Below, one piece after another: positions 2,387 through 29,395 of a stretch of DNA of 37,761 bases; position 1 is the first letter of the stretch; the number at the start of each line of letters is the position of its first letter. The notes under the pieces were generated by a model that was not told the origin of the DNA, did no database searches, and saw only the letters and a list, made by a program, of their open reading frames with translations. The stretch covers positions 1-37,761 of IMG/VR virus record IMGVR_UViG_3300018080_000067, one strand, 5' to 3'. Source of the DNA: a virus. Made by a program: the position numbers and the translations under genes.

Positions 2387-3887
2387 GAGTGTCCTCGTAA
2401 GTAAATGTTCCTAGTCCTATGTTACTATAGTCCTCAGTACCATCGCCAAGCTTAGCCTCAGTAAAGAGGTTAAGAATTTCTTTAACTTCATCAGTTAGTA
2501 TTTCACTCTCCCTTTCACGAATAGTTTTCAACGTGATGTCTTGTGGAGAGATAGCATCCAATTTTCTTCGTTGTCTTGCTAAGCCTATGATGTTTCCCGT
2601 CATCATAATACAAGCTCTTTTTATCCCCTGTGGAACTGGATCCCAAGTTCTCATCGTGTATCGTTCTATAATTCCGGATGCTTCAGCTATCCAGCTGTTA
2701 AGTGTCTCGAAGAAATTTCCTTCAAGCTCTTCGAACTCTTCTTCTTGTATTCCCGTCATTAAGATCGCGTCATTCGGCGTACAGTAACCGATCGGAGACA
2801 ATTGATATGCTCCAGTGTCAACGATACCACGCGAGCCAAAGACGCCATTGAAGCTCAAGTAGGGAGCGCCTACTCCATAAGCTATGGCAGGACTATCTTC
2901 AGAAGGAATTAAATCGTCGTCTAGCTTCAAGTAATCTGGATCACCTGCCACAGCAGTCGAATGTATATGCGCACGTAAGAAGCCTCTAGCCCAGTCCATC
3001 ATATACTCTGGAGTTTGACTACCTCCTTTGTCCTCTGAAAAATATTCATCTACCACAAAAACAGAACCATCTCCGTAGAAAAAGAAACCACCAATGCCAA
3101 GATTTGGCATCACTAAAACTTTATCTTCTCTATGATCGCAGATAGTATTAAAGGTTGCACATAATCCTAGAACCCAAGAATCCCCGCCTACATATGCGCC
3201 AACTGGAGAGCGTACGGTGCAACCGAGTAATCCTAGAGCCCATAATGTTTGCGGATCTATGCTATTATTAACGTAGAAAGCATATTCTGGACTTTCAATA
3301 ATAGATCCCTGACAAAAGGTCCCTACAATAGCTTGATCAGAAACATCATCTCTCATTCCTATGCAAGTACGGAATCCTCTTATCTGAGATACTTCTACAA
3401 AATTTCGATACGAGCTGTTATAAATTCCATACGTTCCTGTTAAACTCGGATCACAATGAATGTTACAATCTTCGTAGAAGAAGCCATCGGGATATACCCA
3501 TGAACCCCCATTATAATAAGCAAGATTAAAAGCTCTAGCATCATTCTCGGTTACCTCTACTTCTATTCCTTTGAACCAGACGTTTTGCATAAAACGTTGA
3601 TCTGCATCTACAGCGACTAAACCAGCTTCAAACTTTACACTCTGTCCTTCAGCAGCTTCAATCTTGAGCCAAATATCTTTATAGACATCTCCGATATTTG
3701 TAATGGGTTCAACGGTGTGGATATTTAATATGGGCTCGTCGACAGCAGGAGGTGTATAGACTCCAGTATATCCGCGAAGGATATGTGTCTCAGAAAAAGG
3801 AGTAGAGCCTACATCCGTGGCTAACGCATCGAGAGCTTGTTGCGGTGTAGAGTAAGTCTTCCCTGGGCCAAACTCATAGACTGACAT
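2379..3887 (-). CDS. head-tail connector with N-terminal beta-helix domain
   Basis: A 502-residue protein from ATG 3887 behind GAAGGAGGTGAAGG. Residues 1 to about 370 look like a right-handed beta-helix (opening YEFGPGKTYSTPQQALDAL, then repeated short strands such as GTYGIYNSS, GTFCQGSIIES, LGLLGCTVRSP). Residues about 372-502 (YCTPNDAILMTGI ... IIERYTMRTWDPVPQGIKRA) resemble small helical gp6/gp15-type head-tail connectors. Connectors are normally 100-150 residues, so the solenoid is an unusual extra. It should project from the neck, and its role (receptor, glycan binding or stabilising) is unknown. The frame is open throughout, so this is not a sequencing fusion of two stop-separated genes. 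Confidence 0.65.
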   Translation of the reverse strand: MSVYEFGPGKTYSTPQQALDALATDVGSTPFSETHILRGYTGVYTPPAVDEPILNIHTVEPITNIGDVYKDIWLKIEAAEGQSVKFEAGLVAVDADQRFMQNVWFKGIEVEVTENDARAFNLAYYNGGSWVYPDGFFYEDCNIHCDPSLTGTYGIYNSSYRNFVEVSQIRGFRTCIGMRDDVSDQAIVGTFCQGSIIESPEYAFYVNNSIDPQTLWALGLLGCTVRSPVGAYVGGDSWVLGLCATFNTICDHREDKVLVMPNLGIGGFFFYGDGSVFVVDEYFSEDKGGSQTPEYMMDWARGFLRAHIHSTAVAGDPDYLKLDDDLIPSEDSPAIAYGVGAPYLSFNGVFGSRGIVDTGAYQLSPIGYCTPNDAILMTGIQEEEFEELEGNFFETLNSWIAEASGIIERYTMRTWDPVPQGIKRACIMMTGNIIGLARQRRKLDAISPQDITLKTIRERESEILTDEVKEILNLFTEAKLGDGTEDYSNIGLGTFTYEDTLD

Positions 3888-8296: not shown

Positions 8297-9805
8297 TTAA
8301 CTCCTTAGGAGCTCGTCCGATAGTCCCTTAATTGCTTCCAAAGCTTCATCGCTAAATAACGAATCGACTGGTTTATTGTCTATGTAATATTCATAAAGAT
8401 GAGGTTGTTCTTGCTCCGTAGGGATTTCAAGCCCAAAGTCCTCTCCAAAGTTCTTCATAAGATCCACAGGTCTCATGGCTCCACGAGCGAAGAGAAATTC
8501 CGCCACGTCCTTCTCATGAGTTTCCTCTGCTAGATCCAGATCATTAAACGAGAACGTTACATCTTTTACACCGAAGCCAGCGTTAATGATATATACGTTA
8601 ATCAGCGAAGCCAGACGCTGCTTACGGGGCGCAATTACAGAGTCCCTGTATATCCTATTAGATTCAACGGCAGTTGATCCTCCGAGAGATCCTGTTTCAA
8701 CTAGACCGATGCGATAGGACGGAACGCCGTGCGCCACTATAATCTCGTCTCTGTTATCCTTACGATAAAGCCTGAACGATGCTTCCTTTATCTCGACTGC
8801 CAACGGTTTGAACTCTATGTTAACTTGTGACTCTGGTGTTTGTCCCGGTACCGCCACGAGTAACGGACTATGTGGATTGGCTGCAAGTGTAGCGAGATGA
8901 CTCTTTATCTGTGAGATAATTGCATACTCAAAGTAAGATGGAGTTTGTTCATCGCCTCCAGTATATTCCTCGCCTATTGTTCCTGAACCGTCGTCCTCGA
9001 GCTTTATTCTTTTCTTCTTGCCGAGGTTATAATCACCGGTGATATAGATAGCGTAGGCTGGCACGCCATGGTTCCTGAAGAAGTCTATGTTATAATCACG
9101 AAGAGCTCTCATTCCTTCTACAGCGCCGACCGCTGGAATGATGGGAGCAAGACCATAGTAATCAGATCTGTTTGAAGGCCCTGATTCCCAGATCACTTCC
9201 GTTGCGCGTTGCGAAGAGTCTAATGAACTTAAAGTATACTCTTTTCCTGTGTCCTTGTCAACGTCCTTCTCATAGCCAAAGCGTTTAAACCAGCGCTCTG
9301 TGGTTCCAACCTTTTGCATGTACTTGTTGCCTTCTTTATGTGCGCGGATCGTGTGCGCTGGGATGTGTGCCATTGAATACGGCTTTCCGTTTGGATCCAT
9401 GAGTTCTCGAACTACTTCCCAACACATATATCCTACTTGCTCAAAGTCTCTTTCGACTTCGACAAGGATAGAGCTGATGGGCTTTCCGTGTCGCGCGTCG
9501 TCACTAAAGAACTCTTCAACGTCTTTGTTCTCTCCGGTGAGAGTAAAGCCAAGTCCCGCTACGTCGTTCGACTTCACGTCGCAGCACTTATTATGCCACG
9601 TGTTTATCTCAGATAAGCCCATCAACGTTTCAGGATTGTGTATCGGTTGAATCAATCCCTTCTCTGTGTAGTACTGAGCTGTAGCGAAGCGATCAGTAGG
9701 TAGCACGTTGCTCTTCGCTCCACTCTTTGAAGCGTAATACTCTAACGCAGTGAAAGGTATCACGTCGTTGCTCTTAGTCGCTATAAAAACAGGATCATTA
9801 CTCAT
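8297..9805 (-). CDS. portal protein
   Basis: A 502-residue portal. The ATG at 9805 overlaps the terminase stop as ATGA and has AGGAGG ten bases upstream. An upstream in-frame ATG at 9844 would add 13 residues but lacks such a site. Portal features include the N-terminal wing (LSEINTWHNKCCDVKSNDVAG), the DYYGLAPIIPAV segment, the FFRNHGVPAYAIYITG strand, and the clip/stem stretch with NRDEIIVAHGVPSYRIGLVETGSLGGST. It forms the dodecameric DNA gate at the capsid vertex and docks the terminase encoded just upstream. Confidence 0.85.
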   Translation of the reverse strand: MSNDPVFIATKSNDVIPFTALEYYASKSGAKSNVLPTDRFATAQYYTEKGLIQPIHNPETLMGLSEINTWHNKCCDVKSNDVAGLGFTLTGENKDVEEFFSDDARHGKPISSILVEVERDFEQVGYMCWEVVRELMDPNGKPYSMAHIPAHTIRAHKEGNKYMQKVGTTERWFKRFGYEKDVDKDTGKEYTLSSLDSSQRATEVIWESGPSNRSDYYGLAPIIPAVGAVEGMRALRDYNIDFFRNHGVPAYAIYITGDYNLGKKKRIKLEDDGSGTIGEEYTGGDEQTPSYFEYAIISQIKSHLATLAANPHSPLLVAVPGQTPESQVNIEFKPLAVEIKEASFRLYRKDNRDEIIVAHGVPSYRIGLVETGSLGGSTAVESNRIYRDSVIAPRKQRLASLINVYIINAGFGVKDVTFSFNDLDLAEETHEKDVAEFLFARGAMRPVDLMKNFGEDFGLEIPTEQEQPHLYEYYIDNKPVDSLFSDEALEAIKGLSDELLRS

Positions 9806-11184
9806 GCCGCGAAAGCCTCCTGCGCTCCATATCTGGACATCCAAGCTATTGCTTGCGTTGTTGAGTCTACCTGATCAAGGTACGCTGTTTCAGGGAACTC
9901 ATCAAGCTCTGTAAAATAATCAGCGAGCCACGGAGCGTTGCGAGGAACATGAACGCGTCTCGCTTCGAACCTGCCACTCACTGCGTCGGCCCGTTGAACC
10001 TTATCTCTATGTACTGGCACACCGATCAAGGGAAGGCTGGACTCCTTACGAAGTTCATGAAGTAAGTCCCTTCCACTCGCTGCCTTCTCTACAAGTACTG
10101 CGTCGGTGTGATGTTTATCATGTAGGGCGACCATGCGTTTCTTGACTTCGGGAAACACTCCGCGAAAGCGAACGACTTCAAGAAGATAGTAATCACCGCC
10201 AGTGTCGCCCCACACTGTGCCTACGTTGTAGGCGTTGCGCTCTCCCTTCTCAAACGCTGTATCCCAGGACGCTACGATCCTGGCGAATCGTGGTAACATA
10301 TCAAGACTAAAGTCTTGTTGTAGCCATTCAATCTTTAAGATAGCTGCTGCCCCTTTAGTTGGCTTCTGTTGAAAGAGGCAGTTGAAAGAATTAGGTCCTA
10401 TCTCTTCTCTCACATCCCTAAGCATCTTCGCAGTAAACTTCTGCTCCCAAAGAGCTTCACCCGGCTTACGCTTATCAAACTTAGTTGGATCATTATCCAT
10501 TAAAGCGGGCAGTCGAACGACGACCCAATTCTCTTCAGGCCATTCACGCAACAACCAACCAACGAGATCATCGTGATGCCAGCGAGTCATAGGGATTATA
10601 ACAGCTCCGTCCGGTGAGAGACGAGTTAACGCTACGTCGCGATACCAGTCCTTTAAAGCCTCGCGATACACGACGCTGTTTGCTTGCTTCCTATCCTTGA
10701 TCGGATCATCAATGATTAAGATGTCAGCGCCCTTTCCTGTGATACCACCACCGACGCCCGCTGCGTTGAACTCGGAGCCAGTGTTTAAAGCCCATTGCGC
10801 TCCTGCTGTTCCTATGTCCTTCGCGAGAGTAACACCGGGAAAGATTCTCTTGAACACAGGACTCTTGATCTGGTTCCTTGCCTTCCTTCCAAAGCCAGTA
10901 GCGAGACCAGCAGCGTAGGAACCAACGATCACGTTTAAGCCATGTACTCTCCCCATCGCGTGAGGTGGAAAGCGAACTGTTATCTCTTCTGATTTACCGT
11001 GGCGTGGTGGTTCGTTGAAGATGACGCGTTTATGTCCTCCCATAATTACTTCATTGAGAACATCGCCGACGACCCAGTGATGCCAGTTAGGGCGGTAGGG
11101 AGGATAGGTCAAGCAAGTATAAGGTACTACATGCCTGCGACCTAATTCCTCAGCAGCTCTTTCACGCATCGTCCGACGGCTCAT
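9802..11184 (-). CDS. terL: terminase large subunit
   Basis: About 460 residues. ATG 11184 has GAGGG at 7-base spacing; ATG 11190 is possible but too close to it. ATPase motifs: Walker A PPRHGKSE, Walker B ILIIDDP, and coupling motif region VIIPMTRWHHDD. The nuclease domain starts with ASWDTAF, continues with VLVEKAASG, and ends with acidic residues near the C-terminus. It packages DNA into the prohead through the portal encoded next. Length is normal. It overlaps both the small subunit and portal, implying coupled translation. Confidence 0.92.
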   Translation of the reverse strand: MSRRTMRERAAEELGRRHVVPYTCLTYPPYRPNWHHWVVGDVLNEVIMGGHKRVIFNEPPRHGKSEEITVRFPPHAMGRVHGLNVIVGSYAAGLATGFGRKARNQIKSPVFKRIFPGVTLAKDIGTAGAQWALNTGSEFNAAGVGGGITGKGADILIIDDPIKDRKQANSVVYREALKDWYRDVALTRLSPDGAVIIPMTRWHHDDLVGWLLREWPEENWVVVRLPALMDNDPTKFDKRKPGEALWEQKFTAKMLRDVREEIGPNSFNCLFQQKPTKGAAAILKIEWLQQDFSLDMLPRFARIVASWDTAFEKGERNAYNVGTVWGDTGGDYYLLEVVRFRGVFPEVKKRMVALHDKHHTDAVLVEKAASGRDLLHELRKESSLPLIGVPVHRDKVQRADAVSGRFEARRVHVPRNAPWLADYFTELDEFPETAYLDQVDSTTQAIAWMSRYGAQEAFAA

Positions 11185-27478: not shown

Positions 27479-27581
27479 TTATCAATGAAATCAATAGGTT
27501 ATCTGGATTTCAGAGCGACAGATCAAAATAAAAGTTTACAAATACTAGAAACGTGGTATATTTGTCTTAGTTCATTGATAA
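27479..27581. repeat. 11-bp inverted repeat flanking a promoter
   Basis: TTATCAATGAA at 27479-27489 and TTCATTGATAA at 27571-27581 are exact reverse complements. One arm lies upstream of the -35 and the other at the predicted start site. This spacing would suit a two-site operator, or a hairpin in read-through RNA from the polymerase gene. Confidence 0.7.
27535..27562 (+). promoter_or_regulatory. promoter of the structured leader RNA
   Basis: TTTACA at 27535-27540, 16-base spacer, TATATT at 27557-27562 with TGG extended -10. It shares the TTTACA and TGn-10 architecture of the two promoters in the divergent region. The predicted start is near 27569-27571. Confidence 0.65.
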
Positions 27582-27807
27582 GAAGAAATCGCCAAAGAAA
27601 AGCCACGGTCTGGGGTAAAATCCTGGGCAGGTAGGGAGAGGTCAGATAGCCCGAAAGCTGGTCCCGCCCGAAGAGGTTGTTGGCGATGAAATAGCCCGAG
27701 AGAAATTTCTCGGCAAATTCTTTGAAAATTAGTAGATTTATCCCGGTAGCTTATTGAGGCTATTTGGGATTTCTGCGCTTGTTGAAATCCTCAGATTTCT
27801 GGGGATA

Positions 27808-27846
27808 AGGTAAGGGATGAGCTCCTTGCCTCTGATGAAACAGCTC
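27808..27846 (+). promoter_or_regulatory. H-type pseudoknot element, copy 1
   Basis: Stem AGGTAAGG/CCTTGCCT (27808-27815/27824-27831) closes the loop GATGAGCT (27816-27823). Then come CTGATGA (27832-27838), three bases, and AGCTC (27842-27846), which can pair with GAGCT of the loop. The SD and start of the 73-aa gene follow at once. In an alternative fold TCTGAT (27831-27836) pairs with ATCAGA (27858-27863) across the ribosome site. Confidence 0.65.
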
Positions 27847-27862
27847 GCACAGGAGATATCAG

Positions 27863-28084
27863 ATGATTTACCACGTAACAGGAATTAGGGCCGACGGAAC
27901 AAGGATAAAGAGAACCGCCACGAACATCGGAGAAGCGAGACGCTACCGTCACTGGATGTTAACCAATTCACATAACGATCCGCTGAACATCGAAGGCAGG
28001 AAGGTTGTGAAGGTTTATTGGAAGAAGGATTACAGAATAGCTTCACTGAACCAGGTCGAAGCTGCTGAGGCGGTGATGGGATGA
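27863..28084 (+). CDS. hypothetical 73-aa basic protein
   Basis: ATG 27863 behind AGGAG. MIYHVTGIRADGTRIKRTATNIGEARRYRHWM... looks like a small beta-beta-alpha domain with many Arg/Lys, and a nucleic-acid ligand is conceivable. It is the first gene after the structured leader. Not recognised. Confidence 0.6.
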   Translation: MIYHVTGIRADGTRIKRTATNIGEARRYRHWMLTNSHNDPLNIEGRKVVKVYWKKDYRIASLNQVEAAEAVMG

Positions 28085-28431
28085 AATGGAGAAAGAAAAT
28101 AGTGGCAGGAGAACCCATTTGGATATCAAAAAATAAACGATGGGAAATAACTATCACAATGAACAAAACGTATCGGTTGTGGGATACCAAGAACCTTGAT
28201 GATGCTATGTTCGCGAAGCAAATTAAACTATGTAAATTGAAAGCTCAATTAATAGAGCTCGATGAGGAGCTAAATTCTCCTGGAATGATAAAACAAAATC
28301 TTCTCGACGCAATCAAATCAGCAGATCAAGAAATAACTAATCTTCAACTTCAATCTGAAAATATATCACAGAGAATCGAAGATCTAGTTAAAAAGAAAAT
28401 AACGCTCATAGAAGAGCTCGAGGAACTTTAA
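28081..28431 (+). CDS. hypothetical 116-aa coiled-coil protein
   Basis: ATGA overlap with the upstream stop. The N-terminal 45 residues (MKWRKKIVAGEPIWISKNKRWEITI...) look like a small beta domain. Residues about 50-116 are a long coiled coil (LIELDEELN, ESADQEITNLQLQSENISQRIEDLVKKK region) ending IEELEEL. Its stop codon forms part of the next leader's closing helix. Function unknown. Confidence 0.6.
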   Translation: MKWRKKIVAGEPIWISKNKRWEITITMNKTYRLWDTKNLDDAMFAKQIKLCKLKAQLIELDEELNSPGMIKQNLLDAIKSADQEITNLQLQSENISQRIEDLVKKKITLIEELEEL

Positions 28432-28511
28432 AGTGAAACCCGGTTCGCCGGGTACGGGACAGGGATGGGCTCCACCCGCTGATGATCTAGCCCTAATACA
28501 AAATCACTTTA
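28429..28511 (+). promoter_or_regulatory. structured leader with pseudoknot element, copy 2
   Basis: A closing helix TAAAGTGA/TCACTTTA (28429-28436/28504-28511) ends just before AGGAGGT. Inside are CCCGG-uucg-CCGGG (28439-28452) and the pseudoknot element: CGGG...GG (28455-28463), loop GATGGGCT (28464-28471), CC-a-CCCG (28472-28478), CTGATGA (28479-28485), three bases, and AGCCC (28489-28493) able to pair with loop GGGCT. Relative to copy 1 an A-U pair of the pseudoknot helix has become G-C. Confidence 0.7.
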
Positions 28512-28528
28512 CTAGGAGGTAAAGAACA

Positions 28529-28882
28529 ATGGCAAAAAAGAAAGAAGACAAAAAAGAAATGAGCGCTGCGGAAGCAAAGAAATCAGTAGATAAAATTACT
28601 GATGAACAGCAAGCTGTCGTCGATTCGGCGATGGAGGATGTCAAGGGAGCTATGAAGCTCTTTGAAGCAGCCAGTGAGAAACTCGGCGCTGTGAAACAGC
28701 CCCACGCAAAGGTCACGAAAGAGAAGAAATACTGCGACTCGAAAGCAGCGGCTCTTGGGACCTACCTCTCCTACCGCGATCCCGAGCTTCGGAAGGTCAA
28801 GGAGAAAGAAAACAAGAAAAAGAAGCTCGAGAAAATGGAAGCACAGATGGCCGAACTCAAGAAAGAACTCGGCATCAAGTAA
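28529..28882 (+). CDS. 117-aa coiled-coil protein, shared C-terminal helix
   Basis: ATG 28529 behind AGGAGGT. Highly charged, Lys/Glu-rich: MAKKKEDKKEMSAAEAKKS, a middle segment with KYCDSKAAALGTYLSYRDPELR, and a C-terminal helix KKLEKMEAQMAELKKELGIK. That last segment closely resembles the ends of the 94-aa and 93-aa proteins encoded at 28949 and 29396. The consensus AUG, strong SD and own leader suggest high, separately tuned expression. Function unknown; scaffold-like or DNA-associated roles are possible. Confidence 0.7.
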   Translation: MAKKKEDKKEMSAAEAKKSVDKITDEQQAVVDSAMEDVKGAMKLFEAASEKLGAVKQPHAKVTKEKKYCDSKAAALGTYLSYRDPELRKVKEKENKKKKLEKMEAQMAELKKELGIK

Positions 28883-28932
28883 TTCTTACTCTGCTCCAGA
28901 GCAAAGTTCTGGGGCAGGAATAAGGATTACTT
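28877..28932 (+). promoter_or_regulatory. structured leader, hairpin with closing helix
   Basis: AAGTAAT/ATTACTT (28877-28883/28926-28932) encloses CTGCTCCAGA/TCTGGGGCAG (28891-28900/28908-28917, ten pairs, one G-U). It ends directly at AAAGGAGG of the 94-aa gene and starts at the stop of the 117-aa gene. Terminator, stabiliser or processing site are all possible; no U-tract follows. Confidence 0.6.
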
Positions 28933-28948
28933 AAAGGAGGTAAGAGAT

Positions 28949-29233: not shown

Positions 29234-29235
29234 TA

Positions 29236-29266
29236 GAGCCCGGAGGGCGATAAACCTTCCGGGCTC
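29236..29266 (+). terminator. strong GC-rich hairpin
   Basis: GAGCCCGGAGG/CCTTCCGGGCTC (29236-29246/29255-29266) pairs with one bulged T over an eight-base loop. It lies just after the 94-aa gene stop. Only TGTTTAT follows, so it may terminate weakly, pause, or protect the mRNA end. Confidence 0.55.
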
Positions 29267-29319
29267 GAAGTGTTTATAGCGTCTCAGACGCCGTAGGAGC
29301 TGATCTAATCTATTACGAT

Positions 29320-29372
29320 GTATCATATCCGCCGTGCTCATTACGGTGAGCAGGACGGAGCTGATACGCTCC
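29320..29372 (+). promoter_or_regulatory. structured leader with competing hairpins
   Basis: GTATCA/TGATAC (29320-29325/29362-29367) encloses CCGCC/GGaCGG (29329-29333/29353-29358) and GCTCA/TGAGC (29336-29340/29347-29351). GGAGC/GCTCC (29357-29361/29368-29372) is an alternative hairpin that excludes the outer helices. The tail CAATACAAATCTAGGAGGT resembles TAATACAAA...CTAGGAGGT of the 28.5-kb leader. Confidence 0.5.
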
Positions 29373-29395
29373 AATACAAATCTAGGAGGTGCCTC

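Follow-up and report, generated by a model that had tools for sequence, protein, structure and literature searches.

Gene context of the paired elements

The window analysed here is a stretch of viral DNA of 37,761 nucleotides (positions 1 to 37,761 of IMG/VR record IMGVR_UViG_3300018080_000067). Downstream of the DNA polymerase gene, two related RNA elements on the plus strand bracket a block of two small genes. The first element (copy 1, positions 27781-27846) precedes a 73-aa ORF (27863-28084, plus strand) that opens the block. This is followed by a 116-aa ORF (28081-28431, plus strand), whose stop codon abuts the second element (copy 2, positions 28432-28493). Downstream of copy 2 lies a 117-aa ORF (28529-28882, plus strand). 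As originally predicted, a ribosome-binding site is located 3ˊ of each copy, with AGGAG near position 27851 and AGGAGG at 28514-28519. Neither the 73-aa nor the 116-aa ORF has a match in PHROGs or Pfam. The setting of both copies is the transcript of the phage early/replication region. A promoter-like match occurs at 27535-27562, and such matches are no commoner than in shuffled sequence.

Structural anatomy of the two copies

The original prediction described two segments, at 27808-27846 and 28455-28493, with a common order of sequence elements, and a re-reading of the sequence confirms both the positions and the order. The first reads AGGTAAGG-GATGAGCT-CCTTGCCT-CTGATGA-AAC-AGCTC and the second CGGGACAGG-GATGGGCT-CCACCCG-CTGATGA-TCT-AGCCC. 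However, these segments are the 3ˊ halves of complete structures that begin approximately 25 nucleotides further upstream, and the 5ˊ halves (27781-27807 for copy 1 and 28432-28454 for copy 2) were absent from that description. With the 5ˊ halves included, both copies carry GAAA, the A15.1-U16.1 pair, UH, and CUGAUGA in the order characteristic of type II hammerheads, in agreement with the hammerhead core CUGANGA ... GAA-A15.1 ... U16.1-H17. The permutation is likewise that of type II, with loops closing stems I and III and with stem II left open. Copies 1 and 2 are very likely type II hammerhead ribozymes, which are self-cutting RNAs. For both copies, the observations reported here document motif identity, homology, and gene arrangement.

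Copy 1 matches the structural descriptor and covariance model R1 (see below) as a complete type II hammerhead with a pseudoknot tail. The 5ˊ strand of stem II (GUU, 27781-27783) pairs with AAC at 27839-27841, and is followed by core nucleotides G12-A13-A14 (27784-27786), as expected from the Rfam RF02276 consensus. The stem III hairpin AUCCUCAGAUUUCUGGGGAU (27787-27806), which contains AU, begins with A15.1 at position 27787, is closed by the A15.1-U16.1 pair, and is evident in both the descriptor match and the predicted fold. Alignment with the hammerhead consensus places the predicted cleavage site (AUA / A) 3ˊ of H17, which is A27807, between positions 27807 and 27808. The stem I hairpin (27808-27831), found by descriptor, sequence, and predicted fold, presents loop I (GAUGAGCU, 27816-27823). 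It is followed by the core sequence CUGAUGA (27832-27838), the 3ˊ strand of stem II (AAC, 27839-27841), and a terminal AGCUC (27842-27846) that can pair with GAGCU at 27819-27823 of loop I.

Copy 2 is recognized by the descriptor, by model R1, and by the position of a hammerhead in a related phage. Its stem II is formed by AGU (28432-28434) and UCU (28486-28488), which yield two base pairs and a U10.1-U11.1 mismatch. Core nucleotides G12-A13-A14 (28435-28437) lead into a stem III hairpin (ACCCGG-UUCG-CCGGGU, 28438-28453, with A15.1 at 28438) that is apparent in the descriptor match, sequence, and predicted fold. The same consensus alignment predicts cleavage (GUA / C) 3ˊ of A28454, between positions 28454 and 28455. 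The stem I hairpin (28455-28478), assigned from model R1 and sequence, is interrupted by an ACA/A internal loop and carries loop I (GAUGGGCU, 28464-28471). The core sequence CUGAUGA occupies 28479-28485, and the pseudoknot strand AGCCC (28489-28493) has GGGCU at 28467-28471 as its partner. The first pair of stem II (10.1-11.1), which is otherwise strongly conserved, is A-U in copy 1 and departs to U-U in copy 2, whereas all other core positions are intact in both copies.

Because positions 27808 and 28455, at which the originally predicted segments start, coincide with the predicted cleavage sites, that prediction in effect described the 5ˊ ends of the downstream cleavage products. Its claim that exactly three bases separate CTGATGA from AGCYC is correct with regard to spacing, and these bases form the 3ˊ strand of stem II.

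Statistical evidence and covariance model searches

The pattern GGGATG-N4-8-CC-N3-20-CTGATG has two matches in the window compared to 0.01 expected by chance. The full strict hammerhead descriptor also gives two matches in the real window, compared to 1 in 300 whole-window dinucleotide shuffles, and a 5-bp pseudoknot beside a descriptor match was seen in none of the 300 shuffles. Two descriptor matches on the minus strand of the window were taken as chance, as their short stems are closed over long spans.

A covariance model (R1) was trained on five homologues, with window sequence excluded, and used to search the window with filters off. Copy 2 comes first in the whole window (25.3 bits, E=7e-5), followed by copy 1 (15.3 bits, E=0.042), both in the correct register. 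The third-ranked location (11.5 bits) is missing most of the structure. A search of 14 pooled sources yielded the same two matches, with E=0.00032 for copy 2 and E=0.2 for copy 1. Because of the latter value, copy 1 taken alone is weak by model score, and the case for this copy is carried instead by its complete core, stems, and pseudoknot.

Rfam model RF02276 reports neither copy in the whole window, either at its gathering score or at lenient E-values. This gathering score is a detection cut-off and not a structural feature, and homology was established through R1. We infer that the silence of Rfam stems from the non-G-C pair at 10.1-11.1 and the non-GUC cleavage site of both copies, together with the AU-containing stem III of copy 1. 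Rfam returned nothing relevant for the window at its gathering or lenient thresholds, an outcome that might easily be mistaken for novelty.

The same search bears on the fluoride (crcB) riboswitch, to which the original prediction had compared the copies most closely. The likeness is superficial and consists of a hairpin-loop GATG, CTGATGA further downstream, and a pseudoknot that joins loop and tail. That the copies might be divergent fluoride riboswitches devoid of P3 finds some encouragement in the shared GATG loop and CTGATGA strings, but this possibility is exceedingly improbable. The CTGATGA sequence is the hammerhead core, and no crcB or other fluoride model matches in Rfam at E<=10. 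As had been recognized at the outset, the P3 hairpin is absent, with 5-6 nucleotides standing at its position, and there is no fluoride exporter among the genes adjoining the copies that were identified with PHROGs and Pfam. In addition, the spacing differs, the window copies include conserved 5ˊ hammerhead elements, and the homologues are hammerheads.

Homologues and covariation

When phage contigs were scanned with a relaxed pattern, a set of clear relatives emerged, each with GAAA and then a hairpin upstream. Those that combine CTGATGA with an AGCC tail and a similar loop I are present in L003, L009, L013, L020, L029, L032, and L041. The homologues in all seven contigs exceed the Rfam gathering score for RF02276 (Hammerhead_II), and L032 includes three copies. 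For example, the L013 representative reads GTC GAAA CGGGC GCA GCCCG T C / TACTGG GATGGCTA CCAGTA CTGATGA GAC AGCCA. Three matches from the first pattern scan (L001, L002, and L004) were set aside as coincidental since they lack the AGCYC tail. Many of the 48 matches from the relaxed scan are coincidences within coding sequences, and these matches were kept only where the 5ˊ half is present. The L003 contig (G002) has type II hammerheads at 1545-1609 and 3061-3126 on the minus strand, located approximately 1.5 kb apart. This pair brackets small genes, and one of its two members is sub-threshold.

The pairing potential between loop sequence GRGCU and the downstream AGCYC, proposed originally, is confirmed in both copies, and the compensatory change from GAGCT/AGCTC to GGGCT/AGCCC is real. 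Each copy can form five base pairs between loop I and the 3ˊ tail, with further compensatory changes among the phage homologues, as the original prediction had asked to be checked. Specifically, among the copies and relatives the outer pseudoknot pair is either G-C or U-A, with G-C or A-U as its neighbour. Compensated variation also occurs in the pairs of stems I and II across copies and homologues. The original prediction likewise had the outer stem vary while preserving its pairing. The U10.1-U11.1 mismatch of copy 2 recurs in homologue L020.

These findings also address the original proposal that the copies are leader RNAs with a novel pseudoknot, which would act as non-catalytic riboswitch-like or translational regulators of an H-type fold. 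The pseudoknot is indeed real and covarying, and it resides directly upstream of ribosome-binding sites. However, such a leader would have no need for the GAAA, stem III, UH, and 3-nt stem II complement found upstream in copies and homologues alike, and Rfam places the homologues in Hammerhead_II. Moreover, the supposedly novel pseudoknot is the published contact between loop I and the 3ˊ tail of type II hammerheads (PMC3088659). With the 5ˊ half of a hammerhead upstream of each copy, the leader-regulator reading is not upheld and has very little probability.

Conservation of position in a distant relative

The closest relative found (L058) encodes a DNA polymerase that is 57% identical by alignment. 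Searches with the polymerase and the 119-aa protein returned only L058 plus distant polymerases, and the latter relatives have no hammerhead beyond chance-like descriptor matches. The L058 counterpart of the 117-aa gene (30% identity, E=6e-5) has a small gene upstream of it, and the hammerhead lies between the two, at the boundary that copy 2 occupies in the window. Gene order onward is retained, with a 94/96-aa pair at 38% identity and a 119/135-aa pair at 59%, and then the ligase and endonuclease genes, which are named in the window and whose L058 counterparts were matched by order and sequence reading only. The L058 ribozyme has diverged in sequence to exhibit a GUC site, a shorter stem I, and no obvious pseudoknot, and it matches RF02276 with E=1.7e-5, below the gathering score. 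Because a search for a second hammerhead in L058 found none, conservation is shown only for the position of copy 2.

We considered whether the elements could be decayed hammerheads, such that one copy, more likely copy 2, cleaves poorly and the transcript is cut once or not at all in vivo. The U10.1-U11.1 mismatch, the broken stem I, and the competing fold of copy 2, as well as the weak covariance model scores, are consistent with decay. All other core positions remain intact in both copies, though, and the pseudoknots covary. Likewise, L058 keeps a hammerhead at the same site, and the U-U mismatch is shared by L020 and is reportedly tolerated better here than any other mispair (PMC3088659). 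Decay is regarded as unlikely, and type II hammerheads predicted to self-cleave are the preferred interpretation. Copy 1 is quite likely to be an active ribozyme. Copy 2, which has the mismatch, the stem I internal loop, and a rival fold favoured by a pseudoknot-free energy model, is more likely than not to be active as well.

Other structures near the two copies

Several additional structures were observed in this region. Between the DNA polymerase gene and copy 1, an 8-bp stem (ATCGCCAA/TTGGCGAT) at 27588-27690 encloses several hairpins and is possibly an unclassified structured RNA. The folding energy of this region is not significant (z -1.06), and it has no Rfam match and no relative was found. 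Part of it was searched elsewhere, and the single match was rejected as chance-level with dissimilar surroundings. Several hairpins occur in the leader of the 119-aa gene (29234-29392), and one of them, GGAGC-TGATAC-GCTCC with AATAC after it, recalls the end of copy 2. There is no hammerhead core in this leader, and its Rfam match is at chance level only (L13-Bacteroidia, E=2.8). One gap downstream of copy 2, a strong hairpin occurs at the same gene junction in the window (28883-28948) and in L058 (9855-9920), with ATTCTTA-like flanks and no hammerhead core. L058 also has repeated intergenic units at 8580-8700 and 10210-10350 that are rich in TGTAATCTANATTACA-like palindromes, which are possible protein-binding or regulatory repeats.

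Possible function of the probable ribozyme pair

We infer that both copies self-cleave and that this would affect mRNA stability or translation. Stems I and III would fold as hairpins and stem II as a short open helix, while loop I and the tail immediately 3ˊ of stem II would pair in a 5-bp pseudoknot that keeps stem I next to stem II. Cleavage 3ˊ of A27807 and 3ˊ of A28454 would then split the polycistronic transcript into three products. The upstream DNA polymerase RNA would end in the stem III hairpin, the middle product (27808-28454) would be 647 nt long and bicistronic, encoding the 73-aa and 116-aa proteins, and the third would be the downstream RNA from position 28455. Each downstream product would start with a 5ˊ-OH, followed by the stem I/pseudoknot structure and, shortly after, its ribosome-binding site. 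It is tempting to speculate that these features shield the product from 5ˊ-end-dependent decay or tune its translation. A more elaborate possibility, which we consider a long shot, is that the pseudoknotted stem I with its 5ˊ-OH remains after cleavage and serves, upstream of the ribosome-binding site, as a protective or translation-tuning cap. Copy 2, with its U-U mismatch, interrupted stem I, and competing fold, would then cut slowly or conditionally and so determine how much bicistronic relative to read-through mRNA is present during infection.

Comparison with known systems

RAGATH-24 RNAs (RF03049) share phage contigs with two of the hammerhead homologues, being located approximately 100 nucleotides from the type II hammerhead in L013 (3157-3265, minus strand) and approximately 1.5 kb from that in L029 (2753-2893, plus strand). 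Their structure is different, and the Rfam search of the window found none.

Type II hammerheads with the same contact between loop I and the 3ˊ tail were reported by Perreault et al. in 2011 (PMC3088659). The pseudoknot is present in a majority of type II hammerheads but not in all, and in that study its disruption drastically lowers the cleavage rate, which is restored by compensatory change. The same authors describe in vitro cleavage and stems II of 1-2 bp, note U10.1-U11.1 mismatches among hammerheads found in nature, and refer to previous work in which U-U at this position gives more cleavage than any other mispair. They also found that prophage hammerhead clusters flank single genes or short blocks of genes. 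A later review further notes that prokaryotic hammerheads often reside beside ORFs for small non-conserved proteins and are persistently linked to phages, and that the role of phage hammerheads is unproven (PMC6155905).

The window pair fits these published settings (PMC3088659, PMC6155905). It resembles other type II hammerheads (RF02276; PMC3088659) in its permutation, core, NUH cleavage site, short open stem II, and pseudoknot, as well as in its phage or prophage setting, where more than one copy flanks small genes. It differs in that both copies fall below the Rfam detection threshold, in its cleavage triplets (AUA and GUA instead of the usual GUC), and in its 10.1-11.1 position (A-U in copy 1 and U-U in copy 2 instead of the usual G-C). 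As neither copy is picked up by the standard Rfam model, counts of phage hammerheads may be too low.

Both the element and its setting belong to kinds already described in the literature, and the pair represents neither a new class of pseudoknot nor a fluoride riboswitch. It nevertheless provides a clean case for considering the role of phage hammerheads, with two divergent copies that bracket a two-gene block and a distant relative that retains a hammerhead at one shared gene boundary despite sequence divergence.
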